IMG/VR virus record: IMGVR_UViG_3300030117_002112
Coordinates: 2,768 to 37,413 of that record
Source: a virus
Length of the DNA stretch: 34,646 nucleotides
Direction: 5' to 3' (one strand)
Shown: piece after piece, positions 14,001 through 34,646 of the stretch
Layout of the letters: each line of letters begins with the position of its first letter
Numbering within the stretch: the stretch's first letter is position 1
Made by a program: the position numbers and the translations under genes
The notes under the pieces: model-generated
What the model saw: only the letters and a program-made list of their open reading frames with translations
Databases searched by the model: none
Told to the model about the DNA's origin: nothing

Positions 14001-17000
14001 GTTGATCGAAATAAGGTAGATGAAGATACTTATATTATATTAAAAAAGGGTTCTGATACAGATATTTTAATACAAGAAAAAGCTAGATACAAGATTGTTG
14101 CTATAGAAAACGAAGCCCCAGAGTTTATAAAAACAGAATACGAGCAGTTAGCTAGAACTAATACAGATTCCACAAGGTATAGTCACTCGTGTCAAATGTG
14201 GGGTGGTGGAGTTAACGCTGGTGCTCCAAATGGAAATACTGGTTGTACTATATATCCGTTAGCACAAGGAGTTATGAGTCCACCTGTTATCGGAAGAAAA
14301 TCTTTTAGTATACATCGTGACCATTGGAAAGGTGATTGGAATGATACAACCAAACAAATGGGTTTACCGGATTTGGTAAAAGTATTTGCTGATATTACCG
14401 CTGATAATACAACAGACGAATTTTATGTTAGTTTTACAAAAGAGACTGTAAATAACGACGGTAGTTTGACTGTTATAGCTGGTAGTAAATATAGAGTTTT
14501 AGAAATCATAGATCATGATAATGTACCCGTTGATCATAACGCATATGATTCGAATGGTGATGGTAGTAATGATGTGGCTGCTGGTACTCTTACAATTAAT
14601 GCATACGAAGTAAAACTAAGCGAACCAATAAAAACTAGTGATGAATTTATAGTAGATGCGTATGATTCCAATGGTCAATTACTAAATGACGATATACATA
14701 TTATTTTTTGGAAAAAGACTATAACAAATAAGCCTGAGTTTGATGGTAGGTTTTTTGTTAAAATATATTCTGATGGTACTGATAGAAAAAACTTATCATC
14801 AGAACCAGCTTTGATCAAAAACTGGTCAATAACAGGTACAACTCCTTTATATATGATATGGGACACAAATGATGGTGTTCAAAGTACAACAGGGTGGCTT
14901 AATGATTTGTCTTTAGATACATTTAATTTTAATACTACTGGTGTTCCTGGTGGTAGCACTTACACCAAAGCTGATTGGAATTCTCATTTAAAGTTTGGTG
15001 GAGTTAATGTAACTTCTAATTGGTTTGTTGACGCAGCGAGTTTTGCGAGTCAACAACCTAATAGTAACAATAACTATTCTAATATTACAAGAACTTTCCC
15101 AGGACCTTTAGGACTAAATATTGATAGTTCTGATACAACGACCTCTGTTTCCTATAATATGTATTGCCATTCTTGTGCATTTGGCATGGGACTTTCATTA
15201 CCGGGTGGTAGTTTTAATGGTACTGGAGAAAGTACTGGTCTTGTTGGTATGAAAGGGGCTTTTGTAGATAGTAATGCACGTAAAAAATTAGATATAGGAT
15301 TTTCAAAAATAGGACCTACTGGTAACACTGGATCTGGTGGGAGATACGAAGGTTATAGCGTTAATTGGCAAGTTGGTGATGCTTCTAATTCTTATCATGA
15401 TGAAGAAAAAGCCGTTGTAGAAGGATTACAAATTAATAGAAGATTTAGATTGCAAGGGAGTCCTGTTATATATAAAATATTAGGTGTAAATAAGTTTAGA
15501 CTTTTTAACTATCAAGGTGAAAAAACTGCCACTCCTGTTAAAACGTATATAGGCTTCCCTTATTATAAAACTTTTTGGAACACTGAGCATTTAGATCAAG
15601 TTCAACTAATGGCTGAACAAAGAAACCGTAGAATTACTTATAGAATATGGTACGATGTTGATCTTACAGCGACAGATCCAGCTGATTTGGTAAGTGGTTT
15701 AGCTGGTACAGTACCTGAGTCAACGGCAGATACTATTATGGATAATGCAGAGTGGAGTAATATATCAAACGTATTAGATGGTGGTACTGTAACTAGTGTT
15801 AATTTAGAGTTTTTAGAAGAATTTAATGTAGAGGGAGAGAATAAAATAAGTGCTAATCCAGCTATATTTGAAACAGAACCTAAAGAAGATGCTGATTTAG
15901 ATTTATATTATGAGGCGTCTTCAAGCTTCCCTACGCTTCCAATAACAAATACGAATAAACATATTTATATACCTGTAGGTTCTACAATTGAAATACCTGA
16001 TTCGTTTCAAACTTTAGCTTGGACAGGTACAGCTCTTACACCGGGAACGTTTGTTACTAGTTGGGAAACTGTAAATCCTTATATTGGTCCATTTCCACCT
16101 CAAATACTTACTGTTAATTTATCAAACTCTATATTAGTAACAGATATATCGTTACTTATTGGCTTATGGAATGATATTACATTTTTAAGAGACGACGGTA
16201 CTTATGTGTCAGCTAAATTCGTTGGCTTTGCTAATTATTATACAGAAACAGATCCTAATTCCCCCAATGTTGGTCAACTTGTAACTGCTTCTCTTCAATT
16301 TAATCCGAGCACTTCTGTAGGATTAAGTTGGCATAATTGCTGGTCTTTTGGTAATGGTGTTGAATCAAATAGAGTTGGTGATACATATAACAAACCGTTT
16401 CTTGGTAATGGAGTTTCCGTATCTAGTATTTTAGAAGATAATTTCAAAGAAGAACACAAGAAATATAGTTTAATATATTCTGGAATATACAATTCTAATA
16501 GTGGTGTTAATAGTTTAAATCAATTTATCGCTGGAGAAAAAATTACTAAAGATTTAAATCCTATATATGGTACTATACAAAGATTAAAAGCTGGTTGGGG
16601 TCAAGGTGGTGATTTAATAGCCTTGTGTGAAGATAGAATATTAAAAATATTAGCTAATAAAGACGCGTTATTTAATGCTGATGGTGATACCAATGTTACT
16701 GCTACTAATAGAGTTTTAGGCCAAGCTATTCCTTACTCAGGTGAGTATGGTATTTCAAAAAACCCAGAATCATTTGCATCAGAGGCGTATAGAGCATACT
16801 TTACAGATAAAGTTCGAGGAACTGTAATGAGATTATCTAGAGATGGTTTAACACCTATATCAGATGCTGGTATGAAGGATTGGTTTAGAGACAATCTAAA
16901 ATTAAATAATAAATTAATTGGAAGTTTTGATGATAAAAAAGATGAGTATAATATATCTTTAGAAAACACCACAGAAAATATTAGTAAATCTGTTAGTTTT

Positions 17001-19535
17001 AGAGAAGACGTAAAAGGATGGGTTAGTTTTAAATCATTTGTAACTAACAATGGTATTAGTTGTGCTAATGATTATTTTACATTTAAAGAAGGTGAACTTT
17101 GGTTACATCATCATGATGTCGCAGGTAATAGAAACACTTTTTATAATGTATTTACACCAACGAGTTTTGAAGTACTTTTAAATGATGCTCCGGATGTTGT
17201 AAAATCTTTTTATACATTAAACTATGAGGGTAGTGATTCAAAAGTAACCTTAAATTTATCAGATGATCAATACCATAATTTAACAGCAAAAAACGGTTGG
17301 TATGTTGACGCCATGTTTACAAACAAAGAAACTGGTGATATTTATGAGTTTATAGAGAAAGAAGGTAAATGGTTTAATTATATACGAGGTACAAATATAA
17401 GTTATAGCGCTACAGATGATAGTATAATAGTAAATCCTGACGGTAGTTCTACTTGGGATCAAGATAGTTTTGCAATACAAGGTTTAGGCGCTGTAGGTGG
17501 TGTTGGTTCACCATTAGCAGTATATGGATGTACTAATCCTTTAGCAACAAATTACGACGCTACGGCAAACACAGACGATGGTTCATGTGTATTTCCAGCA
17601 CCAATTAATGGTTGTACACATGCTACATCTGTCGACTATGATGCTACAGCAACTAGTGATGATGGTTCGTGCACATGGCCTGGTTGTACCGATCCAAGCG
17701 CGAGTAACTATACTATTGGTTATCTAGGAGGTCCTTGGCCACCAGAGGCCCAAACTTATATAGGTATTGGAATGATTGATGATGGTTCATGTGTTTATTG
17801 TAACTATGGATGTATGGACCCAACAGCGTTTAACTATGACGCGAGTGCAACTTGCGATGGTGGAAACTGTATAGCCTCTCAATATGGTTGTATGGGACAA
17901 GCTATTATTCCTTGTAATGAATGTTTAAATTTCGATAATAATGCAAATACAGATGATGGAAGCTGTCAGTGGGAGTTTTGCGGAGAACCTGCAGATAGTC
18001 AATATAATTCTATTGCAGATGCTGAAAGTACAGGTTATATAGTAGCTGGCGTTGGATACGTTAACAACACGGTAGGATGTCAAGATGGTGGATGTACGGA
18101 TCCAACTGCATTTAACTATAATCCAAATGCTTTGTGGAATGATGGTTCTTGTATCGCGGCAATTCCAGGTTGTACAGATCCAAGTGCATATAATTATAAT
18201 GATTACGATCAAGATGGGTTTAGTAATGCACCAACTAATGATCCGACGATTGACGTTAATACTGATGATGGTTCTTGTATATATGAAAATACGTGTTACA
18301 AATGTGGTAATCGATCGACTGATGGTGCACCAGGATATATCGAGGAAGAAATAGTCTTCGAAGCGGTACAAGGTTACTGCCCACCACCACTTCTTGATCA
18401 AACAGCTGCTGATGCAGCGTTTGGAATAAACTTTAATATAGATGATTGTTGTATTGCAGGTTGTACAGATCCACAAGCAATTAATTATGATCCAACAGCC
18501 ACATGTGATGATGGTTCTTGTACTGTTATACCACAACCAATATTTGGATGTCCAGCTGGTACAGGTGCTAGCAACGAGGATTGTGGAACCAATATTAGTC
18601 CTGGTGCTACATCTCCTTGTAATGATGGTGTAACTCAAGACGATGGATCATGTAACTATGACAACTACTGCGTGTATTGTGATTTAAACGGATATGTACA
18701 AGAGGTAAATTACTTAGGATTAAACGGGTTAAGCGTCGCGTCAGATCAACTATCAGGAGGGCAATGTAATCCAAACCCGAATGCGCAGCCTAGTCCCGGA
18801 TATGAGTATACAACTGATTCTACCAATCCAAACGGCTCAGCTTGGACGTTTGTGTGGAATGGTGCTTGGCAAGGTGTTACAGCTGGTAGTGGTTGTGTTT
18901 TAGGCTGTACTGATGCTAATGCTGCTAATTACGATCCGCTCGCAACTTGGGATAATGGTAATCAGTGTATAGCTGCAATACAAGGCTGTACAGATCCTGC
19001 TGCTTGGGATTATGACCCTAGTGCTAATAGTGATATTCCATGTAGTTTCTGTACTCAAGATCCAGAAGATCCAGCAAATTATTGTGTTGGTACAAATACT
19101 CTAGTTAACGGAGTTCCCGTTTGGAATCAAACCGATGCTAGTAATTATGAATATATAGCACCTAACTCACCTTCAGGTTGTAGTATTTATCACAATGGAG
19201 AATGGTGGCAATTTAATAGTAACCTTGGAACTGACGTTACTCTTGAACCTGGAGTAAATAGTGGTAGTTTTGATCAAGGATGGGTTCGTTGTAACTCTAT
19301 TGAAAATACTTGTACTGGTCCAGTAGTTAATGCCACTGGATTTGATGCGTGGTCCGCTGCTCACACTGCGGTTTATCAACCTGGTGATCTTGTTGAATAT
19401 CCTGGTGGATCTGGAAACTTCTATATTTTCAATGCAACAGTAAATAATGGTGGTATGTATTATCCTGATAATAGTGCTTTATGGGATGATGCTAATAGTC
19501 CTTGGTTGTACTGTGCTAGTTGTGATAACTGCTAA
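11073..19535 (+). CDS. Giant tail protein: DNA-stabilisation/nozzle-like body with Cys repeats and a possible sugar-binding tip
   Basis: 2820 residues. The N-terminus (KRNFTKGKMNKDLDERLVPN, then GEYRDAMNVQV) resembles the start of packaged-DNA-stabilisation/tail-tube proteins (P22 gp10, T7 gp12 and crAss-like nozzle relatives). The body to about residue 2120 is beta rich, with a propeller-like stretch near 1840-1960 (GGDLIALCEDRILKILANKDALF; AYFTDKVRGTVMRLSRDGLTPI). Residues 2152-2657 hold about 11-12 cysteine repeats of consensus GCTDPxAxNYxxxAxxDDGSC. Residues 2757-2820 resemble a type 5/12 carbohydrate-binding module (W2760, then Y/GD/V/Y spacing). The frame is intact for 8.4 kb. Likely role: the central tail nozzle, ending in a receptor-binding tip on the cell surface. 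The body assignment is fairly good; the tip function is inferred. Confidence 0.7.
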   Translation: MPEMKRNFTKGKMNKDLDERLVPNGEYRDAMNVQVTTSEGSDVGTIQNVLGNTPGCDVNIAGAGSYTVGSVSDEKNDTLYWLVSGPTGATEETELVNVDMSDMILRRKPDPINGGYTCEAVFVDNYAFSLVNNMVWDGSSDSVDFYSAGLLSQITTDWTITGVNNDGSTSSIENISDISTGDSFVFDWSFIASANPVYDDFCVGPSQQCNGVEVLFPVEQDDCFNCPPNPNTWSNNLGLWAAPIVFLRGYAGPSLLNNYIDLDPYGGGVNISGAPHVSPTPGWQITAETTVNVNYSDNTGETLLQLTLDAPITFGALFQPGVNWTPTPTVWTIPQNWYLAPIGFTIGAQAIPAIITSNTPTVNYLPDSGWIILPPQYDVNDYNINDTIVLDQNLFTEQAGCIIGIDGSNNMLQVDDCNGTFLEPQLIMPGIPNPYIQQGIIVLDESISLIGPDPAILNNYDNLFLQGPRVLNFDHGDLILGINIIDEFLIWTDNKTEPKKISIPRSAAGTNPNGTVHTNVIVPDASGSITPGINKGPAREEHITVIRKAPHRPPTLKIGTELREGPIGLGYNVTMLGNWFDAVGEQLYISINDVDSVPCDFIVGDMIGLGIPGMGVLPGETFLDGYQVTLKILEINEGPWTSSDGTYSVAAGTTAYLVEIITLVDDAPFQGDNWELELIDDENFLFERKLPRFAYRYKYVDNEYSTYGPFSDVAFYPGSFEYQPVKAYNEGMTNRIRTLSIQDFIPSDIPEDVVQVDILYKNENSPIVYLMDSIRENDAGGMNNAWNSVGSNDLAGSAKGSYKITTENIYSALPANQMLRTWDNVPKIALAQDISGNRIIYGNYKQGYTIEEFANDTSGKLVPNININLVARPALEEDIYFARKSIKSLRDYDLGVVWGDKYGRETPVITPSSGSFAVPKSQAEKSNYIKASLEKSPHWAEYYRYYIKETSNQYYNLPVDRIYDAEDGNIWVSFPSVDRNKVDEDTYIILKKGSDTDILIQEKARYKIVAIENEAPEFIKTEYEQLARTNTDSTRYSHSCQMWGGGVNAGAPNGNTGCTIYPLAQGVMSPPVIGRKSFSIHRDHWKGDWNDTTKQMGLPDLVKVFADITADNTTDEFYVSFTKETVNNDGSLTVIAGSKYRVLEIIDHDNVPVDHNAYDSNGDGSNDVAAGTLTINAYEVKLSEPIKTSDEFIVDAYDSNGQLLNDDIHIIFWKKTITNKPEFDGRFFVKIYSDGTDRKNLSSEPALIKNWSITGTTPLYMIWDTNDGVQSTTGWLNDLSLDTFNFNTTGVPGGSTYTKADWNSHLKFGGVNVTSNWFVDAASFASQQPNSNNNYSNITRTFPGPLGLNIDSSDTTTSVSYNMYCHSCAFGMGLSLPGGSFNGTGESTGLVGMKGAFVDSNARKKLDIGFSKIGPTGNTGSGGRYEGYSVNWQVGDASNSYHDEEKAVVEGLQINRRFRLQGSPVIYKILGVNKFRLFNYQGEKTATPVKTYIGFPYYKTFWNTEHLDQVQLMAEQRNRRITYRIWYDVDLTATDPADLVSGLAGTVPESTADTIMDNAEWSNISNVLDGGTVTSVNLEFLEEFNVEGENKISANPAIFETEPKEDADLDLYYEASSSFPTLPITNTNKHIYIPVGSTIEIPDSFQTLAWTGTALTPGTFVTSWETVNPYIGPFPPQILTVNLSNSILVTDISLLIGLWNDITFLRDDGTYVSAKFVGFANYYTETDPNSPNVGQLVTASLQFNPSTSVGLSWHNCWSFGNGVESNRVGDTYNKPFLGNGVSVSSILEDNFKEEHKKYSLIYSGIYNSNSGVNSLNQFIAGEKITKDLNPIYGTIQRLKAGWGQGGDLIALCEDRILKILANKDALFNADGDTNVTATNRVLGQAIPYSGEYGISKNPESFASEAYRAYFTDKVRGTVMRLSRDGLTPISDAGMKDWFRDNLKLNNKLIGSFDDKKDEYNISLENTTENISKSVSFREDVKGWVSFKSFVTNNGISCANDYFTFKEGELWLHHHDVAGNRNTFYNVFTPTSFEVLLNDAPDVVKSFYTLNYEGSDSKVTLNLSDDQYHNLTAKNGWYVDAMFTNKETGDIYEFIEKEGKWFNYIRGTNISYSATDDSIIVNPDGSSTWDQDSFAIQGLGAVGGVGSPLAVYGCTNPLATNYDATANTDDGSCVFPAPINGCTHATSVDYDATATSDDGSCTWPGCTDPSASNYTIGYLGGPWPPEAQTYIGIGMIDDGSCVYCNYGCMDPTAFNYDASATCDGGNCIASQYGCMGQAIIPCNECLNFDNNANTDDGSCQWEFCGEPADSQYNSIADAESTGYIVAGVGYVNNTVGCQDGGCTDPTAFNYNPNALWNDGSCIAAIPGCTDPSAYNYNDYDQDGFSNAPTNDPTIDVNTDDGSCIYENTCYKCGNRSTDGAPGYIEEEIVFEAVQGYCPPPLLDQTAADAAFGINFNIDDCCIAGCTDPQAINYDPTATCDDGSCTVIPQPIFGCPAGTGASNEDCGTNISPGATSPCNDGVTQDDGSCNYDNYCVYCDLNGYVQEVNYLGLNGLSVASDQLSGGQCNPNPNAQPSPGYEYTTDSTNPNGSAWTFVWNGAWQGVTAGSGCVLGCTDANAANYDPLATWDNGNQCIAAIQGCTDPAAWDYDPSANSDIPCSFCTQDPEDPANYCVGTNTLVNGVPVWNQTDASNYEYIAPNSPSGCSIYHNGEWWQFNSNLGTDVTLEPGVNSGSFDQGWVRCNSIENTCTGPVVNATGFDAWSAAHTAVYQPGDLVEYPGGSGNFYIFNATVNNGGMYYPDNSALWDDANSPWLYCASCDNC
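17526..19043 (+). repeat. Array of GCTDP...DDGSC cysteine repeats in the giant tail protein
   Basis: About 11-12 diverged units start at residues 2152, 2180, 2204, 2246, 2272, 2340, 2366, 2463, 2492, 2611 and 2638. The standard unit is 21 residues, G-C-[TM]-x-P-x-A-x-[ND]-Y ... D-D-G-S-C, and several are expanded to 27-37 residues by loop insertions. Each unit has one Cys at the front and one at the end, suggesting a disulphide or calcium-stabilised small fold (D-D-G-S). Longer Cys-rich linkers separate some units, for example 2299-2339 and 2403-2462. Such repeats are familiar from secreted proteins of marine Flavobacteriia. Confidence 0.85.
19341..19532 (+). other. Possible CBM5/12-type chitin/carbohydrate-binding module at the protein tip
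   Basis: Residues 2757-2820 read FDAWSAAHTAVYQPGDLVEY, then FYIFNATVNNGG, then a P...W.......W pattern. This matches the W-x(n)-Y-x-x-GD-x-V-x-Y ... aromatic ... P ... W layout of chitin-binding type-3 modules, where exposed aromatics stack on sugar rings. Extra Cys at the very end (CASCDNC) may cap it. Similarity is judged by eye only. Confidence 0.5.
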
Positions 19536-22293: not shown

Positions 22294-23076
22294 ATGGCAT
22301 TTGCAACAATAGCATTAATAGGAGCGGGTGTAGCGGCAGCTGGTGGTATAACTAAACTTGGTATGTCTCTAGCTGGTAGAGGAAAAAGAATAGAGGAGCA
22401 AGAGAAAGCTAAAGAAGAAATGGATAAATTCAAAAAAGAATACGAGAATTTAGACACTAGTAACTTAGCCGCTAATGTACGTAATCAGTATGCCAATATG
22501 GAAAACACATATGAAGATCTTACTGTAAACCAACAACAAGCCCAATTTGAAGCAGAACAAATACAACAACAACAAGCTAATATAATGCAAGGTATGCAAG
22601 GTGCGGCGGGTGGTTCTGGTATAGCTGCTTTAGCGCAAGCTATGGCACAACAAGGTCAATTAGCAGCGCAAAGAGCTAGTGCTAGTATTGGAGCGCAAGA
22701 ATCTAAAATACAACAATTACAAGCTGGTGAAGCTAGTAGACTTCAAATGCAAGAAAGAGCAGGTGAGGTTCAAGCGCAACAAATCAGACGTGCTGGTGCT
22801 CAACAAGCTAGAAGTTTAGAATGGCAAAAAACTGGAACATTACTAGGTATGTCACAGCAAAGACTAGGTGCTGCTAATCAGGCTAGAGCAGAAGCTAGAG
22901 CACAGCAAATGAGTGCGATTGGAGATATTGCAAGTGCTGGTATGCAAGTTGCTCAAATAGGTATGAAAGGCATGGGTGGTGGTGGTGCTACCCCTCAAAG
23001 TGGCGGTTATTTAGATGCTGCGGGTAACGAGGTTAGTGTAAACCCTGAGTTTGCAAGTGAATTTGAAAAAATATAA
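22294..23076 (+). CDS. Probable internal virion (ejection) protein, gp14-like position
   Basis: 260 residues. The N-terminus has a hydrophobic glycine/alanine stretch (ATIALIGAGVAAAGGITKLG) that could insert in a membrane. A Q/A/E-rich helical region follows from about 30 to 215 (for example QQAQFEAEQIQQQQANIMQG), with long amphipathic character, and a glycine/methionine-rich tail (QIGMKGMGGGGATP). Small ejection proteins of T7-like phages (gp14) have an N-terminal hydrophobic segment followed by an Ala/Gln-rich helix, which this resembles in composition only. Position before two further candidate internal proteins fits. The start ATGGCA is 3 bases after the cupin stop (TAG). Confidence 0.5.
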   Translation: MAFATIALIGAGVAAAGGITKLGMSLAGRGKRIEEQEKAKEEMDKFKKEYENLDTSNLAANVRNQYANMENTYEDLTVNQQQAQFEAEQIQQQQANIMQGMQGAAGGSGIAALAQAMAQQGQLAAQRASASIGAQESKIQQLQAGEASRLQMQERAGEVQAQQIRRAGAQQARSLEWQKTGTLLGMSQQRLGAANQARAEARAQQMSAIGDIASAGMQVAQIGMKGMGGGGATPQSGGYLDAAGNEVSVNPEFASEFEKI

Positions 23077-23080
23077 ATAT

Positions 23081-24115
23081 ATGAGTGATACAAGTTTAAT
23101 ACGAGGTGCGGCTACAGCATATAAAAACTGGGATAATGTTCCTGGAATATATGATGGTTTAGATAAGGCAATTGGAGGTGGTATGGAAATGATGGAAGAA
23201 GGTCTTACTGGTTTAAAAAAAGAAAAAATAATAGACGAACAATTAAAAGGTCAGTTTAATGAATTAGCCACTGATATTTATGACAACTATGATGGATCGT
23301 TTAAAACAGATGTTGATTATAAGCATACAATACAAGAAGTTAAAAGCATGGAGCAAGAATATTACGATGCTTTAAAGAGCGATGATCCAGAGTTATTAAC
23401 TAAAGCTAAGTTAAGATTTAATAATTTAGACAGCGAAATACAAACAACAAAAGAATTAAGAAAATCAATAACAGATCCAGAGTTTGGAATGTCTAACGCT
23501 GTAAAAGGTTCTAATCGTTTAATTGTAAATACTTGGTTAGCTGAAAATTACGAAAAGTCTGGTGAAGGTGGAAATTATACTTATACTATGGATATTCCTG
23601 GTCTTGGTAAAGTAACTAAAACTAGACAGGAGATAGAAGCAATGGCTCTTATGAAAAATAATCTTCCTAACGAAGCTTATACAAAAGTATTTAGAAAATA
23701 TATAGGCACTAAAAAAGCAGGGAATAAAAAACTATTAAAACATGATCTTGGGCAAAACGTTGTGCCTACTAAAAAAAATGATTTAGATGTTTTTTTAAAT
23801 GACGAAGGTTTTGCAGCTGGAGGAACTTTTACAGATTTAATGATGAGACCTGACAATAAAAAATATTATAGCGAGCTATATGGTGATATAATAAAAAGTT
23901 ATGATATGAATCCTACTGAGGATGATTATGATGAATTTGTAGATGCTATAGCTAATCCTAACAATAAATTCTGGCAAACACAACCAAAAGGTTCTTGGGA
24001 AGAAACATCTAGAAAAATAGCTATAGAAACACTTACCAATGCCGTTGTAAATGGACATAATGAAACTTGGGGTGTAGGTGAAGAAGAAGGTGAGAATATA
24101 GATGATATCTCTTAA
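23081..24115 (+). CDS. Probable internal virion protein (344 aa)
   Basis: 344 residues with start at 23081. An earlier in-frame ATG at 23051 lies inside the upstream gene, and 23081 has the usual A/T leader (TATAAATAT). It is mostly helical: an N-terminal region (GAATAYKNWDNVPGIYDGLD), a coiled-coil-like acidic part (EVKSMEQEYYDALKSDDPELL), then a mixed region with GNYTYTMDIPGLGKVTKTRQ and a strongly acidic tail (GVGEEEGENIDDIS). No signal peptide or catalytic motif. It lies between the gp14-like candidate and the giant polyvalent protein, the place of T7 gp15, but is shorter than gp15. Function is inferred from position. Confidence 0.5.
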   Translation: MSDTSLIRGAATAYKNWDNVPGIYDGLDKAIGGGMEMMEEGLTGLKKEKIIDEQLKGQFNELATDIYDNYDGSFKTDVDYKHTIQEVKSMEQEYYDALKSDDPELLTKAKLRFNNLDSEIQTTKELRKSITDPEFGMSNAVKGSNRLIVNTWLAENYEKSGEGGNYTYTMDIPGLGKVTKTRQEIEAMALMKNNLPNEAYTKVFRKYIGTKKAGNKKLLKHDLGQNVVPTKKNDLDVFLNDEGFAAGGTFTDLMMRPDNKKYYSELYGDIIKSYDMNPTEDDYDEFVDAIANPNNKFWQTQPKGSWEETSRKIAIETLTNAVVNGHNETWGVGEEEGENIDDIS

Positions 24116-24126
24116 TAAAATATAAT

Positions 24127-27100
24127 ATGAGCGAAGTATTTGTAGATAATAAATATCAAGGTGGTTTTGTTGGAGATTTAGAAACTTTAACAAGTCAATT
24201 TCAACGTGGAGATATAAATAATCCATTAGACGAATATGACGTTGAAGCCTTAATTTCTTCTCAAAAAAATATTGATTTAATTATAGATAATAAAATACCA
24301 TTAACTGATGAAGCTAAATTTGAGTTAAACAAAGTATTAAAATATCATGACGAAGATTATGTAAATAAATTTAGATCAACTTATTTTACACCGCAAGAAG
24401 TCGATTCACTTTCACAATCACAATCTCGTTCAGAAACTATCACTACTGATGTAAAAGAATCTAAAAGACCAAAAACTCACGAACGATTATGGAAAGCGCT
24501 AGTAGATAAAGAGCTTTATAGTGGTGATTATAATAAATTTCAAGAACAATTTTCTACACCAGAAACACAACAAAGATTATTCAAGTCTCTTAAAGCGAAA
24601 AAACTATACAGCAAATCTGCTGGTGATTTCATGAATACATTTTTTCCAGTTATTGAAGAACAAAAAGTAGAAACAGTAGTAGAAGATACTCCAGAAACAA
24701 AGGTTCAAAACATACAGAAAGATGATAAGTCTTCAGTAATCGAACGTTCTTACATGCAAGAAGACGAAAGTTATGATGATTTTTATAATAGAATAACGCC
24801 TACTACTAGAGAAGTAGAAGAAGAAGTTTATGATGCTAGTTATAGAGGTTTTGTAAAAAAACCAGTTACCAAAACAGTTATAGATGGAATAGCAAAAATA
24901 AAAGACGGCGTTTATGTAAATGAAAATAACGAACCAGCTACCGAAGAAGAAATACTTAGATATACTGAATTAGAGCAGTTAAACAATATTCGTCAAGAAT
25001 CTTTTGCTATAACATCTAGATCGGCGGGTGATTATAGTGATTTGTCTGCTAGCGAAATTGTAGAAGCTGGTAAAAAAGAAAAACTAGAAGATGTTGATGT
25101 AACTCAAGTTGGTGAAATAAAACCAGAATTAGACTATGAACTTAAAGATTATTTAGAATATAATCAAGAACAATTGATAAATAATTGGGAAAATTTTTTA
25201 GTTAAAACCAACGCGCCAATAATAGCAAGACAAGAAAAAGAACAACAAGAAATATGGGATTCAAAGTGGGAAGCATTTTTACAAGAAAATGAATCTACTA
25301 TAAATGGAGAAGTAAAAGCTTTAGAGCAAGAAGTTTTATCATTTTGGGAACCTCAATTTAAAAAAGCTAAAACCCAATCAGAACTTGACAATCTAATTAG
25401 TGAGGCAGAGGAAGATCTTAAAACAAGTATAAATCTTCAAATAAACGATCGTTATAAAGACATGTTTAACCAGTTGATGCTAGAGGACGAAGAATTAAAT
25501 GTTATAGGAGCTAGACATCAAGAGGAATGGAAAGTAATACAAGAAAAACAATGGGATCAATATGCTAAAAATATTAAACCAAAATATGATATTTTTACAC
25601 CTAAAGTTTTAGATGAAATAGGCGAAAACTTAGATCAAAATTATAATTTTCAATATAAACCTGGTCCAGAGCAAAAAATGTTATTACAAAGAGCTCTTGA
25701 TGGATATATTAGAGAATTTGGTATTCCAGAAGGAAAAGAATTGGAAGATGTTAAAAATGAATATTGGTCGTATTTTTATAAAAAATTAGCGTTTGATCCA
25801 TCGTCTACTAATGAAGATGGTACACCAACTTATTCTCAATGGGCTTATAAAGATATAGCAACAGGGGCATTAGAAGAAGCTAAGAAAGAATTAACAAGAT
25901 TATCCAAAGACTACGAACCAATAAAAGTTCGAGTTTCCGCTAGAGAATACAGAACAATAACACCAGAACAACAAGCTAGAAATAATAACCCTGAGTTAGG
26001 TCAAATAATAGATTTTTCCCAAAGAGTTCTTGATAATCCAGAAGAAATGAGTAAAAATGGTTTTACTAATTTTTGGAAAGGATTAACATCATTACAAGGT
26101 CATGAGTATATACCCGTGGTAGGTGGTTTAGTTGAGCTTAATAACTCGGCTCATTTTTACGAATTATCTCAAAAAAAGGATAGAACTAAAATGGAAGACT
26201 TGGCTCTTTCAATATATGCTATTAAAAACGCGTCAGATAAAAAAGTTTCAGAACTAGGTAGCACGGCTTACAATGGTGGTAAAATAGCTGGTGGATCTGT
26301 ATCCTTTATGGGTGAGGTTATACTTACTAGTGGATTGTATACTAGCGTTAGGAAAAGCATGTCTAAAGTTATAAAATCTTCTTTAGATAAAGCTATAAAA
26401 AGATCTACAGGTAAACAAGCTGCTAAAGGTGGTTTAAGATTTCAAAAAGGAACAAGTAAAATGTTGTTCGTACCTAAAAATACTACATATAAGATGGTTG
26501 ATAGCGTGGGAGATGTTACGGGATTTTTATTTGCTACAGCTGCTCAAACTAGTGTTAATCCACAAAGGTATTTAAAGGGTATGTATGATAACATGACACC
26601 AGAGATTGCCTTTGCTTATACAGATCAAGTAGATGATCTTATAACTGATTTAGAATTAAACGCGTTAGTTGGCAGTGAAGACAATCCAGATTTAAAAGAT
26701 GGAGACGATGTGTTAAAAGCTTTTGCCAAGGCTTTTGGTACTACATGGGCCGAGTACGCAACGGAACGTATGGGAGAATTACTACCTGGTATGGCTAAAG
26801 GTATGGCTAAAAAAATTGGACTAACATCTCCAGATTTTCTCAAGAGAATGAGTATAGGTCTTGTTATGCGTAAAATGGGGTTAAGTACGGTAGGAGAAGC
26901 TAGTGATTGGTTAAAAAGAACAGCTGGTTACCATGGCGTTTTTGGTGAATTAACAGAGGAATTTATTAACATGCCAATATCTAACATCATTAACGGTGAA
27001 ACTTGGCACGAAGGATTTGACCAGCAAAGTATAAAAGAAATGACAGTTGGTATAGCTCCAACAGTATTCGCCATGAGTGGTGGTAATGTTTTGTACAATA

Positions 27101-30100
27101 CAATGACTAATAAATCTAACCCATCTTATTGGGTTGATTACCAAAGACACGAAACAAAAGAATCTGCATTAAAACATTTAAATAGACTAAAATCAGAAGG
27201 TAGATTAAATAAAGATACAGATATAGAAATCAGAAATGATTACGTAGCCTTTGATGAGGTTTCAACTTTTTTAGAAGGTGAAGGACTAGATAATGAAATA
27301 ATTAAAACTAGTGGACCGGGTATATCCGAAGGAAGTATAGTTGCTACTGAAACTGAAATGCTTGACGAAATGGACGATCCTAACCAAAGAAAAGAAGTGG
27401 AAGGTAGATCTGATCAAATAAAGGAAAAGCAAGACGCTATAGAGGCCTTAGAAGAGTTCATGAGAACAAAAAGAAGATCTACAGATAAAGAAAAAGAAGA
27501 CGTCAATATTAAAATTAAAAAATTACAAGACGAAATATCTGATTTAAAAGCTGCAAATGAAGTTATATTAAGTCCTATTAGAGATTCAATTATTAAAAAG
27601 AAAAAAACCGAAGCATATCAAAAAGGTTTAGATAATTTAAGAAATATATATTCTAAAGGAAATAAAGGTAAAAATAAAGATGGTTCTGAAATTTTACAAG
27701 AAGCAACTTCAGATGAAGAGGTTAGAAGTATAATAACAGCAGATATATTAAGTCGAGATGGTCTAGAAGTAAACGACAACGGTGATATAGTTTTTATAGA
27801 CAACGGTCAAAAAGTAAATTTAGATGATGCTAGTTTAAGATATATTGATAAACAAGTAGAAGCCGCTTTAACTTCACATGGTGGTTTCACTATGGACGCG
27901 GAGACTGGTAAAAAATTAATTGTAATTAATAAAAACAAAGCAATAGAAGGAGCTGGTTCAAACGTAGCTATGCATGAGTTTTTACATCACTTTCTAGTTG
28001 AAACGCTTAATAAACATCCAGAATTAAAACTAGCCGTTGGAGAAGCTTTAAGTAAACACTTGGTTAATATAGATCCTAAACAAATAAGAGATACTGATTT
28101 TAGAAAAAGAGTAATGACGTATCAACAAGACTTTGGGTATACAACATCAATGGAAGAAACATTAAATCTTCTATCTGATGCTATAGCTAATGGTACTTAT
28201 CAATATAATGAGTCAGCAATGACTAAACTTGGTGATATTATAAGGCGTGTAGCTAGTAGTTTTGGAGTAAGAGTAGAGTGGAAAGACGGGAGAGATGTAT
28301 TTAATTTCATACGAGATTACAATAAAGCATTTGAATCTGGGAAATTATCAAAAGGTTTTCTAGAAACAATGGAACAAGGTGTAGTAATAGGTGGTAAAAT
28401 AAAAACTGAAGCACAAGCCTTAAAGGACAAGCTTAAAGAAATTAGAAAAATACCTGGGTTTGAAGAAGTTAAACTAGAAGATGCTGCTGATGCTCAAATG
28501 TTATTTTCCAAAGACACTGAAAATCCTCTTGTAGGTAACGAAACTTTTCAAGAAAAAATACAAACATTATACGAGCAAGGAGATTTAGATGCAATACAAG
28601 AAGCTTATAAACCTAGAATAAAAAGAGTTCTTAGAGCAGAATGGGGTTGGACAGAAGAAATATCTGATAAGTTTGAAGGTATAGTTGAAGAAGCTGTTGG
28701 TCCAGATAGAGGTGTTTTACAATTAATTCTCGGTCCTGGAAAAACAAAATATGATCCAACTTTAGGTGTTCCTTTATCTGGGCATATAGGATCTGTACTT
28801 CAAAAAAGAGGTTTAAGTGAGTTTGTGAAAAGAGAATATCCAGAAGGTGTTATAGAACAACGTATGGGTAAAGAATCTGTAGCAAAAGAAGTCGCTAAGA
28901 TAGAAACTAAACCGCAGGATGTTATATTAACAGATAAAGTTTTAGATAAATATATAACGCCTTTATTGTCTGATTTAAAGTTTACTAAAGATCAAATTAA
29001 AGTTTTAAGAGCAGAAGTTTTAAAAATTGTTGGTACTAAACTAAAAGCCTTAGACGCTGCTGTATCCAAAAATCAATCTATTAGTCCTATGATTGCTGAT
29101 ATGAAAAAGCAACTATATGTTAAAAACGGGCCAATACACAATGTAGTTTATGATATTATGACCGCTGACATGGCGGATATGATAAGTGAAAATCTTAAAG
29201 CTATAAATCCAAAAACTAAAAAGTTATACACAAAAAAAGAGGCTGAACATAAAGCTTTTAAAGATTCAGTAGAAAAGTTTTTCAAAACACCTAAATACAA
29301 AAAAGCAATTTTAGATTCTTTAACTACCACATGGTTGGCTAAATGGTTACCAATGGGTGTTCAGAAAAAGATAGTTGGTATGGGTTGGGTTAATCATGAC
29401 GTTTGGGAAGGGAGAAAAAAGGGTACTAAACGAGGTGATGTTGAAGCTTGGCAAGCTAGCGAAGAAGGTCCTTATAAGGGTATGACTGATGGAAAGCAGA
29501 AGATAAGAAGAAATCCTAAGGCTACAACTGATGTAACGCCAGCAATGCTATTAAGTGCTTTTGTTAAAGGTAAAACGCCTACAGAAATAAAAAGAAAAGG
29601 ATTAGAAAACATATCTTTAACTATAACTCAAGAACTAGGTTTAGAAGTATTCAAGGCTGACATGGTTAATGATGGTAAACTAAAGGAAGTATTTAAAAAC
29701 AGACAAGATCTTTTTGATAGAATATTAAACGATAATTTTGTTGAAGAATTTGTTAGGCAATTTGAAAGAGGTACAACAAAATATAGCGCAGATGCCGCTA
29801 AAGAAATAACTTTAAAAACCGTTGAAGAGGCTAACCGTAGATTAAAAGAACAAATAACCGCTGGTTATGATGGTGCTGTCGAAATAATGGGTATGAAACC
29901 TATAAGCCTTAAAACAGAAGAAGGTAGAGAAGAGTATAGACTTTTCTTTTTAGAAAAAATAGTACCGATGCTTTCTAAAAGGGTTTTGTTAGCAATGTCT
30001 GGCAGTTTTACTGCTTCCGCTAGTACTTTAGCAAAAAATTGGAAAAGAAGATTTTTATTTAAGAATAAAACAGAGTTTACATACTTTTTAGATCAAGTAG

Positions 30101-33100
30101 AAGAACAAGGTCTTAGATTTGGTGTTAATCTTAGTGAGCAGCAAGAGCAAAAACTATACGACGCTGTAAAAAAAGAAGGTTATGGAAAGGCTAAATTAAA
30201 AACTCAAGAGAAAAAAGTTAAAGATAAAAAGTTTAAAGATAGTAAGGAGCAAGGTTTTAGATTATTGTGGGAAATGGTGCAGAAAGAAATACAAACAAAT
30301 GAAAAAACTATACCTGGTTTTGCATTTTTAATGTCTTCTTCTAGTCAATTCCAAGGACATTTTATGAGAACTGGTGCAAAAATAGATTTTTTCAATACTT
30401 TAACTGGTAAAAATAGAGAAGAACATACTTCACCTATAACAGCTTTAGGTAAATACTTTTTTCTACATGCTGTAAAGGGTAATTTATTCACAGGTGGTAA
30501 AAATAGCATTTATGATAAGGCTATCAAATCTTATTTTCAAGGTTCTTTACCTGTATTTATGGATAATAGATTAAAACAAAAGGATGCTAATGGTAATTGG
30601 ATATATGATTATTCAGATTTACCACCTTTAGAACATTTAACAGCTATATTAAATGGTGATATATCTATATGGGCTAGATATTTCCACCCTAACGTTAATA
30701 ATAATTTTGATACAGATTATGATTCGATGTCTGAAGTGGATATCGCAAATGGATTACATGAAATAGGTGGTATAAATCCAAATATTTTAGTTTTAGCAAA
30801 CGGCAATACGATAGCTAAAGAGTTTGGTGTTGATGTTAAAGGTAAAATAACTCCTGCTATAGCAGCTGCACAACAAGGTTTAATATATAGAATGGCTATT
30901 GGTGAGAATATAAGTGCTGCTAAAATAAAAGAAGTTTTAGACGGAGCGAGTAAAACACCAATTAAAAGTGAAGCTAAAAAACAAATGACATTAACTAATG
31001 CTGTGGTTGTTTCTAGATCTATAGATGCTAAACCTAAAGGTATTACTGTTTTTGATTTTGATGATACATTAGCTACTAGCAGGTCAAAGGTTATATCAAC
31101 AGCTCCAGATGGTACCGTTAGAAAGCTAACAGCAGAACAGTTTGCTAAAGAAGGCGCTGATTTGTTAGATCAAGGTTATACACATGACTTTTCTGAGTTT
31201 AGCAAAGTTGTAAAAGGTAAAACAGCATCACTGTTTAATAAAGCTTTAAAATTACAAAAGAAATTTGGTCCTGAAAACATGTTTATATTAACGGCAAGAC
31301 CAGCGGAATCAGCAGAATCAATACATGAGTTTTTAAAAGCTAACGGTTTAAATATACCATTAAAAAATATTACTGGCTTAGGTAATTCTACATCAGAAGC
31401 AAAAGCGCTTTGGATAGCTGATAAAGTTGGTGAAGGTTACAATGACTTTTATTTTGCTGATGATGCGTTGCAAAATGTACAAGCTGTTAAGAACATGCTA
31501 GATCAATTTGATGTAAAATCGAAAATCCAACAAGCTAAAATTAATTTTAGTAAAGACGCTAGCGATCAATTCAACGAGATACTAGAAGATGTTACTAATA
31601 TTGATGCTGTAAAACGTTTTTCAGATACTAAGGCTAGAAAACGTGGCGCTAGTAAAGGTAAGTTTAGAATATTTATACCACCGTCACACGAGGACTTTGT
31701 AGGTTTACTTTACAACTTTATGGGTAAAGGTAGAAAAGGAGATGGACATAGAGATTTCTTTGAGAGAAATTTAATTAAACCATTAAATAGAGCTTATAGA
31801 GAAATAGATACAGCTAAGCAAGCTATAGCTAATGATTATAAATCTCTTAACAAAGCATTTCCAGATGTTAAAAAGAAATTAAAAAAGAAAACTTTTGATA
31901 ATGATTTTACATTTGAAGATGCAATTAGAATTTACTTGTGGAATAAACATGGTTACGATATACCGGGGCTTAGCAAAACAGATCAACAAAAATTAGTTGA
32001 CTTAGTGACACAAGACCCAGCATTACAAAATTACGCAGAAACATTAAACGTCATATCTAAACAAGATACATATGTAAGTCCAGGCCAAGGGTGGGAAGGT
32101 GGCAATATAAAAATAGATTTAATAGATGCTACTGGTAGAGTTGGTAGAGAACAATACTTTGCTGAGTTCAACGAAAATGCAGAGCTAATATTTTCACCTG
32201 AAAACTTAAATAAAATAGAAGCTGCATATGGTAAATCTTTTAGAGAGGCTTTAGAAGATATGCTTCACAGAATTAAAACTGGTGTTAATAGACCTAAAGG
32301 ACAAAGTGGACCGGTAAATAGGTGGATGAACTTCCTAAATGGATCTGTTGGTACAGTTATGTTCTTTAATATGAGATCAGCTATATTACAGCAAATGTCT
32401 ATTGTTAACTATTTAAATTTTGCTGACAACAATATGTTTGCAGCTGCCAAAGCATTTGCAAACCAAGCTCAATATTGGAAAGATTTTGCTTATATATTTA
32501 ATTCAGATATGTTAAAGCAAAGAAGAGGTGGTATTGGTACAGATATAAACGGAGCTGAACTCGCGGAAGCTGTTAGTAAAGCAAGAGGTGGTAGTATATT
32601 TGATAAAACTGGTGTTTTAGTAGGTAAGCTTTTACAATTAGGATTTACACCTACACAAATTGGGGATAACATTGCAATATCAATTGGTGGTGCTACTTTT
32701 TATAGAAATAGGATAAATAAATATTTAAAAGACGGTTTAAGCAAAAAAGAAGCAGAAGCAAAAGCGTGGACTGATTTTCAAAATATAACACAGTCAACAC
32801 AGCAGTCATCTAGACCTGATATGACTTCGCAACAGCAAAGCATGTGGATTGGAAAGATGGTATTAAATTTCCAAAACATTACTTCTCAGTATAATAGAAT
32901 AATTAAAAAAGCTGCAAGCGATATATATAATAGAAGAATGACACCGCCTAATACTACGCAGTTCCAAAGTGATGCTTCTAACATGTCTAGAATATTATAT
33001 TATGGCGCAGTGCAAAATGTAATATTTTACAGTTTACAAACAGCATTGTTTGCAGTTATGTTCGGAGATGAAGATGAAAGTAACGAACAATTTTTAAAGA

Positions 33101-33891
33101 AAAAAGAAAGAGTTATAAATGGAACAATTGATTCTATATTAAGAGGATCTGGTATATATGGTGTTGCTATTTCTACTTTAAAAAACATGGCTATAAAATG
33201 GTTTGAACAACGGGAAAAAAGTTACAATAAAGATGAAAGTGCTGTTTTGATGGAACTTGCAAATTTCTCACCAGTTGTTGGTATTAAGTCTAGAAAAATA
33301 GTTAACGCTGAGAAAACCATTAATTATAATGAAAGTGTTATAAGTGAAATGGAGACATTTGATGCTGATAATCCAGCTTGGTCTGCCGCTACTAACTATA
33401 TTGAAGCTTTAACTAATCTTCCTGCTAATAGATTATACCAAAAAAGTATAAATATTAGAAATGCTTTGGATAATGATTACGAAGCTTGGCAAAGAGCTCT
33501 GTTCTTTAGCGGTTATACAACTTGGAGTCTTGGGCTTGAAGATACCAAGAAAATGCAAGTAATAAAAGAAACTGTTAAAACTAAAAAGAAAGAAGCTTCT
33601 AAAGAAAAAGCAAAAATAAAACGAGAAGAAAAGAAAAAAGAAAAAGAGGAAGAAAACAAATCTTTAATCGAAGAAAATAAAAAGAAAAAAGATGGTAGGT
33701 GTGCACATATAAATACTAGTGGTCAACGTTGTAAAAACGACGTTGTTAAAGATGGTTTTTGTAGTATACATGAGAAGGTAGAACAAAGAAAAGATGGTAA
33801 AAAAAGACAGTGTAAAAAATACAAAAGCGACGGTACAAGATGTAAAATGCAAACATCTAGTAAATCTGGCTTTTGTTATTACCACGATTAG
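24127..33891 (+). CDS. Giant multidomain polyvalent virion protein: zincin protease, HAD phosphatase and CCCH finger pair
   Basis: 3254 residues with an intact frame. In order: two copies of an ~30-residue unit (R120-F142, R150-F173) with the pattern R-L-[WF]-K-x-L ... L-Y-S; a helical region; a Gly/Ala-rich hydrophobic stretch near 710-750; a coiled coil at about 1095-1165; a zincin motif HEFLHH (H1283, E1284, H1287) with a candidate third ligand in SMEET (E1343/E1344); a possible sigma-region-2-like piece (1485-1574); a conserved-looking central region to ~2290; and an HAD domain with DFDDT (D2310, D2312), T2389 in LTARP and FADD (D2445, D2446). The C-terminal part has hydrophobic segments near 2740 and 2956-2979. 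After a lysine/glutamate linker come C3192/C3202/C3212/H3215 and C3229/C3239/C3250/H3253. This matches the published 'polyvalent protein' concept. Likely ejected; the T7 gp16 position suggests it, but ejection is unproven. Confidence 0.7.
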   Translation: MSEVFVDNKYQGGFVGDLETLTSQFQRGDINNPLDEYDVEALISSQKNIDLIIDNKIPLTDEAKFELNKVLKYHDEDYVNKFRSTYFTPQEVDSLSQSQSRSETITTDVKESKRPKTHERLWKALVDKELYSGDYNKFQEQFSTPETQQRLFKSLKAKKLYSKSAGDFMNTFFPVIEEQKVETVVEDTPETKVQNIQKDDKSSVIERSYMQEDESYDDFYNRITPTTREVEEEVYDASYRGFVKKPVTKTVIDGIAKIKDGVYVNENNEPATEEEILRYTELEQLNNIRQESFAITSRSAGDYSDLSASEIVEAGKKEKLEDVDVTQVGEIKPELDYELKDYLEYNQEQLINNWENFLVKTNAPIIARQEKEQQEIWDSKWEAFLQENESTINGEVKALEQEVLSFWEPQFKKAKTQSELDNLISEAEEDLKTSINLQINDRYKDMFNQLMLEDEELNVIGARHQEEWKVIQEKQWDQYAKNIKPKYDIFTPKVLDEIGENLDQNYNFQYKPGPEQKMLLQRALDGYIREFGIPEGKELEDVKNEYWSYFYKKLAFDPSSTNEDGTPTYSQWAYKDIATGALEEAKKELTRLSKDYEPIKVRVSAREYRTITPEQQARNNNPELGQIIDFSQRVLDNPEEMSKNGFTNFWKGLTSLQGHEYIPVVGGLVELNNSAHFYELSQKKDRTKMEDLALSIYAIKNASDKKVSELGSTAYNGGKIAGGSVSFMGEVILTSGLYTSVRKSMSKVIKSSLDKAIKRSTGKQAAKGGLRFQKGTSKMLFVPKNTTYKMVDSVGDVTGFLFATAAQTSVNPQRYLKGMYDNMTPEIAFAYTDQVDDLITDLELNALVGSEDNPDLKDGDDVLKAFAKAFGTTWAEYATERMGELLPGMAKGMAKKIGLTSPDFLKRMSIGLVMRKMGLSTVGEASDWLKRTAGYHGVFGELTEEFINMPISNIINGETWHEGFDQQSIKEMTVGIAPTVFAMSGGNVLYNTMTNKSNPSYWVDYQRHETKESALKHLNRLKSEGRLNKDTDIEIRNDYVAFDEVSTFLEGEGLDNEIIKTSGPGISEGSIVATETEMLDEMDDPNQRKEVEGRSDQIKEKQDAIEALEEFMRTKRRSTDKEKEDVNIKIKKLQDEISDLKAANEVILSPIRDSIIKKKKTEAYQKGLDNLRNIYSKGNKGKNKDGSEILQEATSDEEVRSIITADILSRDGLEVNDNGDIVFIDNGQKVNLDDASLRYIDKQVEAALTSHGGFTMDAETGKKLIVINKNKAIEGAGSNVAMHEFLHHFLVETLNKHPELKLAVGEALSKHLVNIDPKQIRDTDFRKRVMTYQQDFGYTTSMEETLNLLSDAIANGTYQYNESAMTKLGDIIRRVASSFGVRVEWKDGRDVFNFIRDYNKAFESGKLSKGFLETMEQGVVIGGKIKTEAQALKDKLKEIRKIPGFEEVKLEDAADAQMLFSKDTENPLVGNETFQEKIQTLYEQGDLDAIQEAYKPRIKRVLRAEWGWTEEISDKFEGIVEEAVGPDRGVLQLILGPGKTKYDPTLGVPLSGHIGSVLQKRGLSEFVKREYPEGVIEQRMGKESVAKEVAKIETKPQDVILTDKVLDKYITPLLSDLKFTKDQIKVLRAEVLKIVGTKLKALDAAVSKNQSISPMIADMKKQLYVKNGPIHNVVYDIMTADMADMISENLKAINPKTKKLYTKKEAEHKAFKDSVEKFFKTPKYKKAILDSLTTTWLAKWLPMGVQKKIVGMGWVNHDVWEGRKKGTKRGDVEAWQASEEGPYKGMTDGKQKIRRNPKATTDVTPAMLLSAFVKGKTPTEIKRKGLENISLTITQELGLEVFKADMVNDGKLKEVFKNRQDLFDRILNDNFVEEFVRQFERGTTKYSADAAKEITLKTVEEANRRLKEQITAGYDGAVEIMGMKPISLKTEEGREEYRLFFLEKIVPMLSKRVLLAMSGSFTASASTLAKNWKRRFLFKNKTEFTYFLDQVEEQGLRFGVNLSEQQEQKLYDAVKKEGYGKAKLKTQEKKVKDKKFKDSKEQGFRLLWEMVQKEIQTNEKTIPGFAFLMSSSSQFQGHFMRTGAKIDFFNTLTGKNREEHTSPITALGKYFFLHAVKGNLFTGGKNSIYDKAIKSYFQGSLPVFMDNRLKQKDANGNWIYDYSDLPPLEHLTAILNGDISIWARYFHPNVNNNFDTDYDSMSEVDIANGLHEIGGINPNILVLANGNTIAKEFGVDVKGKITPAIAAAQQGLIYRMAIGENISAAKIKEVLDGASKTPIKSEAKKQMTLTNAVVVSRSIDAKPKGITVFDFDDTLATSRSKVISTAPDGTVRKLTAEQFAKEGADLLDQGYTHDFSEFSKVVKGKTASLFNKALKLQKKFGPENMFILTARPAESAESIHEFLKANGLNIPLKNITGLGNSTSEAKALWIADKVGEGYNDFYFADDALQNVQAVKNMLDQFDVKSKIQQAKINFSKDASDQFNEILEDVTNIDAVKRFSDTKARKRGASKGKFRIFIPPSHEDFVGLLYNFMGKGRKGDGHRDFFERNLIKPLNRAYREIDTAKQAIANDYKSLNKAFPDVKKKLKKKTFDNDFTFEDAIRIYLWNKHGYDIPGLSKTDQQKLVDLVTQDPALQNYAETLNVISKQDTYVSPGQGWEGGNIKIDLIDATGRVGREQYFAEFNENAELIFSPENLNKIEAAYGKSFREALEDMLHRIKTGVNRPKGQSGPVNRWMNFLNGSVGTVMFFNMRSAILQQMSIVNYLNFADNNMFAAAKAFANQAQYWKDFAYIFNSDMLKQRRGGIGTDINGAELAEAVSKARGGSIFDKTGVLVGKLLQLGFTPTQIGDNIAISIGGATFYRNRINKYLKDGLSKKEAEAKAWTDFQNITQSTQQSSRPDMTSQQQSMWIGKMVLNFQNITSQYNRIIKKAASDIYNRRMTPPNTTQFQSDASNMSRILYYGAVQNVIFYSLQTALFAVMFGDEDESNEQFLKKKERVINGTIDSILRGSGIYGVAISTLKNMAIKWFEQREKSYNKDESAVLMELANFSPVVGIKSRKIVNAEKTINYNESVISEMETFDADNPAWSAATNYIEALTNLPANRLYQKSINIRNALDNDYEAWQRALFFSGYTTWSLGLEDTKKMQVIKETVKTKKKEASKEKAKIKREEKKKEKEEENKSLIEENKKKKDGRCAHINTSGQRCKNDVVKDGFCSIHEKVEQRKDGKKRQCKKYKSDGTRCKMQTSSKSGFCYYHD

Positions 33892-33925: not shown

Positions 33926-34646
33926 ATGGTAAAAAGACTAATAATACTGCTACTATTTATATCTAATATAACAGTGGCTCAAACATTTGACATTGAGGAC
34001 GTTAAGAAGATGCTTAAGTTTTCTACGTTCTATGCCGCCGTAAATGGTGGAACGTCACTTTCTGATGTTGATATATTCTCTGTAGATAATGGCTTATCTA
34101 CACAGACTATTTCAACTCCTTATGATTATAATTTTACCATAGGTTTACGTAAGATAGCGAGATTTGGTTATGAAAATAAAGCGCAAACGTTTTATGATGG
34201 AACGGAATCTAATTACAGTGACGCGGCCACTGTCGGTAAAGTTAAAGGAGTTGAATACTTATTTGAAGTGGATTACAAACGACAAGAAGGCGTAGATTAT
34301 ATGGATCAACACCATTTTATTAGGTTTAGTTCTGACGATGGTTGTGAAGACGAGTTATGTATAAACTTTTTCGCTTTAAAACTTGAATACTTAGAAGATG
34401 GCTTTGCTGACGTAAAATACTTTGAAGCATCAGAAAGATATAGACAACGTAAAGGCAAAAATTTATCTTGGAACGTGGGATTAACACATCGACTTGCAGA
34501 GCCATACGGTTACAATGCGCTTGATGAGTGGATGTTATCAAATGGTAATATTCATTATACTTATTTAGCGTTACAAGAAGGTTATACGGCGGATGTGTAT
34601 AGCAACACGTATTTTAATCCTGCTGGTGAACTCGTAGCAACTAGCG
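33926..34646 (+). CDS. Exported beta-rich protein of flavobacterial type, partial at the right edge
   Basis: 240 codons read from an ATG at 33926 to the window end with no stop. The N-terminus (MVKRLIILLLLFISNITVAQ) is a clear signal peptide: basic start, a Leu/Ile core and a likely cleavage after T-V-A. The mature part is beta rich with aromatic-alternating strands (YDYNFTIGLRKIARFGYENK, YLFEVDYKRQ, HHFIRFSSDDG) and a Cys pair (DGCEDELC). This layout suggests an outer-membrane barrel or periplasmic lipoprotein-like protein made in the infected cell rather than a virion part. It follows the giant gene by 34 bases, with an AAGCA leader unlike most starts here. The family is not known to me; the end of the gene is outside the window. 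Confidence 0.75.
   Translation, partial: MVKRLIILLLFISNITVAQTFDIEDVKKMLKFSTFYAAVNGGTSLSDVDIFSVDNGLSTQTISTPYDYNFTIGLRKIARFGYENKAQTFYDGTESNYSDAATVGKVKGVEYLFEVDYKRQEGVDYMDQHHFIRFSSDDGCEDELCINFFALKLEYLEDGFADVKYFEASERYRQRKGKNLSWNVGLTHRLAEPYGYNALDEWMLSNGNIHYTYLALQEGYTADVYSNTYFNPAGELVATS

Follow-up and report, generated by a model that had tools for sequence, protein, structure and literature searches.

Gene neighbourhood of the giant frame

The window analysed here, from a marine phage, is a stretch of 34,646 nucleotides, corresponding to bases 2768-37413 of an IMG/VR record of 37,413 bases, and it reaches the end of that record. PHROG matches placed a terminase gene (58-2271) and a portal gene (2277-4697), followed by genes for virion structural proteins, upstream of the giant gene. 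Since relatives of the terminase and portal are found in Flavobacterium phage elemo, the Cellulophaga phages phi18:3 and phi38:1, Tenacibaculum phage Gundel_1, Maribacter phage Panino and the uncultured phage ctfjg026, the first-pass annotation was right to call this phage flavobacterial-type. In a tail protein of 2820 aa (11073-19535), Pfam recognised a crAssvirus muzzle C-terminal domain (2.2e-06), so a tail tip like that of the crassviruses is possible; in relatives, a second gene matching part of this tail protein lies downstream of the giant gene.

The giant gene (24127-33891) encodes 3254 aa from an ATG start with no internal stop, and it lies on the + strand, as do g13 and g14. Its start codon is located 12 bases past the stop codon of the preceding gene, and the leader is AT-rich and without a Shine-Dalgarno sequence. 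The gene follows g13 (22294-23076), which encodes a small protein of 260 aa with a hydrophobic, Ala/Gly-rich N-terminus and is T7 gp14-like by position, and g14 (23081-24115; the ATG at 23081 was chosen over a TTG at 23051), which encodes a medium-sized protein that is T7 gp15-like by position and whose family was found in 37 loci. The small, medium and giant genes form a conserved block with the giant last, preceded by the terminase, portal, capsid and tail genes. The gene after the giant (33926-34645) runs off the record end. It is the most conserved gene near the giant (median identity 81%, 48 loci), and it encodes an N-terminal signal peptide, with a possible lipobox in relative L002. No match to it was found in Pfam or in phage genomes; its product is a candidate for secretion or for the outer membrane, and might act in superinfection exclusion.

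One IMG/VR scan revealed relatives of the giant protein in 63 contigs, most of them proteins of 2200-3400 aa, and the match fell within one long frame in all 63, which agrees with the original reading of the window gene as a single intact frame. The order of the tail gene, g10, g11, g13, the giant and the downstream gene was held in most of these contigs. Another 13 relatives containing the C-terminal domain (CT, see below) were found in MAG contigs, of which the host labels Maricaulis, Woesearchaeota and Caldiserica were not accepted as hosts, being probable binning errors. A tblastn search of 50,697 phage genomes with both halves of the giant gave no match. Searches of Pfam and PDB sequences with the whole giant and with profiles of its HAD, zincin, sigma-like and CT regions gave nothing over threshold, the only resemblance being to DUF5763, below its cut-off.

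The same three-gene arrangement is present in cultured phages. In phi18:3 the small, medium and giant proteins gp120, gp121 and gp123 close the structural block and were annotated from experimental MS/MS, and the corresponding sets in phi38:1 (gp99, gp100, gp101) and elemo (gp22, gp21, gp20) are placed likewise. The slot for the giant protein is also held in ctfjg026 and Panino, and no such giant was seen in the region of Gundel_1 that was examined. Profile iteration showed that the g13 family also includes phi18:3 gp120 (E~1e-25; itself one of the MS/MS-annotated proteins), phi38:1 gp99, elemoC gp22 and Panino 72. An N-terminal domain of approximately 375 aa, here called EJ, is common to the virion giants of the cultured phages and 24 members of the present family by profile search, and it accounts for a BLASTP match between relative L035 and phi38:1 gp101 (1.9e-15). 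The window protein has a diverged copy of EJ at 26731-27579 (aa ~869-1151) that was detected by profile-profile comparison only. A direct HMMER search of the window protein with the EJ profile was not significant; when the window protein was combined with L046 and L050, hhalign against the EJ profile gave E=7e-10, as compared to 0.03-0.8 for controls, and E=7.5e-5 with L046 left out.

These results bear on whether the protein belongs to the virion at all. It could be a late multi-enzyme factor that is made in the infected cell and never packaged, its gene simply adjoining the structural genes. The virion MS/MS data come from phages outside the clade of the giant, and the highly conserved next gene (33926 onward) encodes a signal-peptide protein, which could mean that the structural genes stop close by. 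Because the slot, the g13 homology and the EJ domain tie the giant to MS/MS-annotated virion proteins, we regard a non-virion role as very improbable.

Domains of the giant protein

Several unrelated enzymatic or binding domains occur in this one polypeptide, namely a zincin signature, a HAD domain, CT and Cys/His fingers. Nearest the N-terminus is a module designated N1 (24475-25020, aa 117-298), in which two repeats of the type RLWKALVDKELYSGDYNKFQEQF were seen by eye. Profile searches located N1 at or near the N-terminus of six relatives and of L090. Tandem copies of a short motif, LWKALVDKELYSGDYNKFQEQF and LFKSLKAKKLYSKSAGDFMNTF, are found at 24475-24660 (aa ~117-178); given the N-terminal placement of the module in relatives, this motif could possibly serve as a packaging signal.

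The zincin-like metallopeptidase domain (27808-28488, aa 1228-1454) has an HExxH motif, HEFLH, at residues 1283-1287 (27973-27987) and a candidate third ligand, E1344 (28156-28158). No columns other than H1283, E1284, H1287 and E1344 are invariant among 51 relatives, in a domain with a mean column identity of 21%, and the Glu-to-Glu spacing is 52-94 residues (median 60). An HEXXH-plus-Glu pattern of this kind has been described for polyvalent MPTases (PMC5512222). In an AlphaFold model (mean pLDDT 74) a helix and short strands precede the HExxH helix, with E1344 on a later, separate helix. A Foldseek search of PDB and BFVD with a model of the zincin and sigma-like regions returned only noise and recovered no zincin, so the zincin fold is deduced from the residues and the topology. 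The catalytic signature of the zincin proposed in the first-pass annotation was therefore confirmed, but a fold match to the AlphaFold model was not obtained; it is likely, from these sequence features, that the giant carries a metal-dependent protease domain.

A helical, sigma-like module follows (28603-29091, aa 1493-1655). The segment had been put forward as a sigma-like candidate, and it does represent a conserved module, present in 14 family members, but it resembles sigma-70 region 2 only weakly. In hhalign comparisons E was 0.0012 against four E. coli sigma factors and 0.01 against a broader set, with a probability below 20% both times. The region 2 alignment is in register (GI-DLI-Y-P-GVPL-YI versus GL-KAV-F-GYKFSTYA), and Pfam gave no support for a sigma relation. 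A relationship to sigma region 2 is thus offered as a suggestion.

The HAD phosphatase-like domain (30964-31566, aa 2280-2480; motif I at 31054-31068) bears the conserved residues DFDDT (2310-2314), T2389, K2426, D2445 and D2446. Motifs I, II and IV were found in 64/64 proteins, and K2426 is invariant in alignment A1. PHROG 415, "polynucleotide kinase", was matched by 35 of the 40 members scanned (best 5.6e-07), and together these observations bear out the earlier assignment of a HAD domain. A profile of the family HAD aligned with that of phage PNK phosphatase domains with motifs II and IV in register (hhalign, E=7e-4, probability 27%); such E-values are single-pair values, and were judged against wrong pairings run identically, which gave 0.35-0.6. 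A phosphatase domain is a likely component of the giant on the sequence evidence.

Motifs I and II are usually spaced by 78, but by 214 in L026 and by 277 in both L027 and L054, and this enlargement indicates that sequence has been inserted at the cap position of the HAD domain. The insertion between these motifs in L027 (aa 1461-1738) and L054 (aa 2090-2367) is a zeta-toxin-type P-loop kinase, over the Pfam Zeta_toxin cut-off in both (5.5e-10 and 3.8e-14, respectively). L026 (aa 1636-1850) has a different insertion of approximately 136 residues at the same cap site; its assignment as an ADP-ribosyltransferase was dropped since the ART-PolyVal model gave no match. An initial impression that L026, L027 and L054 lacked motif I was wrong, as the motif sits upstream of the insertion. 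In L044 (10598-11950), approximately 440 residues with weak MORN/DUF2963-like repeats are found between HAD and CT.

CT (31567-33561, aa ~2481-3145) is a domain of approximately 670 aa that follows HAD in every complete relative, and its model is all-helical (pLDDT 74). With the family itself set aside, this model matched BFVD entries at E-values of 7e-7 to 0.02, and many of these were annotated as large polyvalent protein-associated or ART-PolyVal. Since TM-scores were low, the resemblance is treated as a lead and no assignment was made. An identification of CT as LPD38 was not supported, the LPD38 model being over threshold in 0/19 records, that of the window included; the ART-PolyVal model was over threshold in none of the records of 41 relatives, a set to which the window's own record does not belong. 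The protein ends in two C-x9-C-x9/10-C-x2-H fingers (33700-33888, aa 3192-3254), at residues 3192 and 3229, that resemble DUF5763 (Pfam, E=1.2e-4, under its curated cut-off). The C-terminal finger pair noted originally is therefore present, and both copies are found in 8 of 64 proteins.

Conservation and exchange of modules

Iterated profiles detected HAD in all 64 proteins and CT in 62; in the remaining two the protein is truncated by the end of the contig. Zincin was detected in 51 proteins, with counts of 14 for the sigma-like module, 10 for the fingers and seven for N1. Among the 13 MAG relatives, some of which have truncated frames, all had CT, eight had HAD and five had zincin. From these counts CT is considered core and HAD nearly so, and the zincin, sigma-like module and fingers are considered optional. 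The first-pass annotation had regarded the domain order as unusual and had suggested comparing it across related contigs. Rather than an oddity, the protein belongs to a family represented in 64 or more phage contigs, and in 13 MAG contigs besides, in which HAD and the helical CT are constant, but the zincin, the sigma-like module and the fingers vary.

Median identity to the window protein was 72% for HAD and 65% for CT; zincin was at 30%, and most upstream neighbour genes were at 34-45%. Across contigs, HAD and CT together are about 45-80% identical (HAD alone 62-81%), while the other modules are often unrelated. Of 34 pairs with C-parts 80-94% identical, drawn from 60 full-length proteins, 13 had an alignable N-part of less than 25%. 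In L005 and L025, for example, the C-part is 87% identical, and the N-terminal 1906 and 1333 residues, respectively, have no BLAST similarity. The region before HAD is exchanged almost freely between relatives as modules. In pairs at low dS, dN/dS was below about 0.4 for HAD, zincin, the sigma-like module and CT, indicating that all four are under purifying selection.

This pattern must be weighed against a second alternative, that the giant has a chiefly structural role, in the internal core or in DNA translocation, in the slot of T7 gp16 or N4 vRNAP, with enzyme-like domains that serve virion assembly alone (self-cleavage by the zincin, action of HAD on packaged DNA ends) and are not host effectors. 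That conservation is by far highest in HAD and CT fits a constant machine part and not a fast-changing weapon, and encapsidation of N4 vRNAP needs its MPTase-bearing region (PMC5512222). A structural role does not, however, call for free exchange of N-terminal modules or for additional enzymes in the HAD cap, and we consider this explanation unlikely, although it deserves more weight than a non-virion role.

Proposed function and comparison with known systems

The reading that we favour, with reasonable though not complete confidence, is that the giant is a polyvalent cargo or ejection protein of a short-tailed phage of Bacteroidota type. The proposal of a polyvalent-type protein in the ejection slot is supported by synteny, g13 homology, the EJ domain shared with the phi18:3 giant and module swapping. 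As a likely protease and a likely phosphatase are carried by a giant in the slot of virion giants, we infer that the phage probably injects ready-made enzymes along with its DNA. By analogy with the phages analysed by MS/MS, the giants of which share the EJ domain only, the protein would be packaged inside the virion and would exit with or before the DNA, through an envelope channel formed by g13 and g14. CT may serve as the constant element for docking or translocation. Cleavage by the zincin could release separate enzymes from the giant, either while the virion is assembled or after entry; alternatively, the zincin could cut a host protein. HAD, probably of polynucleotide kinase/phosphatase type, would strip phosphates from nucleic-acid ends or from nucleotides, acting in the first minutes, ahead of phage gene expression; reversing the cuts that host defences make in RNA or DNA would be an example of such a task. 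A more specific form, in which HAD is a PNKP-type 3'-phosphatase, with a cap-nested kinase in some relatives, that repairs defence-cut tRNA or DNA ends at entry before phage expression, and in which the cap is an effector-exchange socket, is speculative and rather doubtful.

In current thinking, polyvalent proteins are the earliest enzymes that a phage uses in the cell. A constant and testable catalytic core is found in few of their families, and the present family has one in HAD plus CT. That HAD is strongly conserved suggests a single indispensable reaction, which is compatible with either an assembly role or a host-directed role; conservation of HAD and CT amid often unrelated modules points to that reaction being an early one. 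With the cultured Cellulophaga and Flavobacterium relatives, the slot can be approached in the laboratory; the zincin is a clear handle for testing self-processing.

With T7, the likeness is one of arrangement alone. The position of T7 gp16 claimed in the first-pass annotation was borne out by gene order, the giant being the last and largest of a small-medium-large set, but not by sequence, as five family profiles gave E-values of at least 0.1 against gp16 in hhalign. Nor was a sequence relation to T7 gp14 or gp15 found, and a Pfam search of the giant found no peptidoglycan-hydrolase domain. The likeness to the gp73-gp72-gp71 set of phage DEV, in which the giant is a virion RNA polymerase, is also limited to arrangement. 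In N4 and DEV a giant is encoded beside a small membrane protein and a medium tunnel protein (PMC10925440), an arrangement matched here, and N4 vRNAP also has an MPTase; in contrast to these polymerases, Pfam found no RNA polymerase domain in the present giant.

T4 Pnkp, a kinase plus HAD 3'-phosphatase, is similar in the PHROG 415 match and in the register of HAD motifs II and IV, and two relatives of the giant add a P-loop kinase. It differs in that the window protein has no kinase and the kinase of the relatives is nested in the HAD cap instead of being N-terminal. PNK-HAD enzymes are known as RNA-repair factors in jumbo phages (PMC7824862). The giants phi18:3 gp123, phi38:1 gp101 and elemo gp20 occupy the same slot after the same small gene family, and their EJ domain recurs in many members of the present family, but HAD, CT and zincin profiles detected none of these domains in those three giants. 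Like the polyvalent proteins (Iyer et al. 2017, PMC5512222), the giant is a large multidomain protein encoded beside virion genes, with an HEXXH-plus-Glu zincin, modular exchange and a CT model that resembles proteins annotated as polyvalent or ART-PolyVal. Unlike them it has a core HAD, a type of phosphatase unmentioned in the text of that paper, and the LPD38 and ART-PolyVal models are without a match. The literature searched contained no family with a constant HAD-CT core and cap-nested kinases. Polyvalent proteins are already known, as is giant cargo that phages eject; the giant is best read as an ejected polyvalent protein whose family is new but whose kind is familiar.
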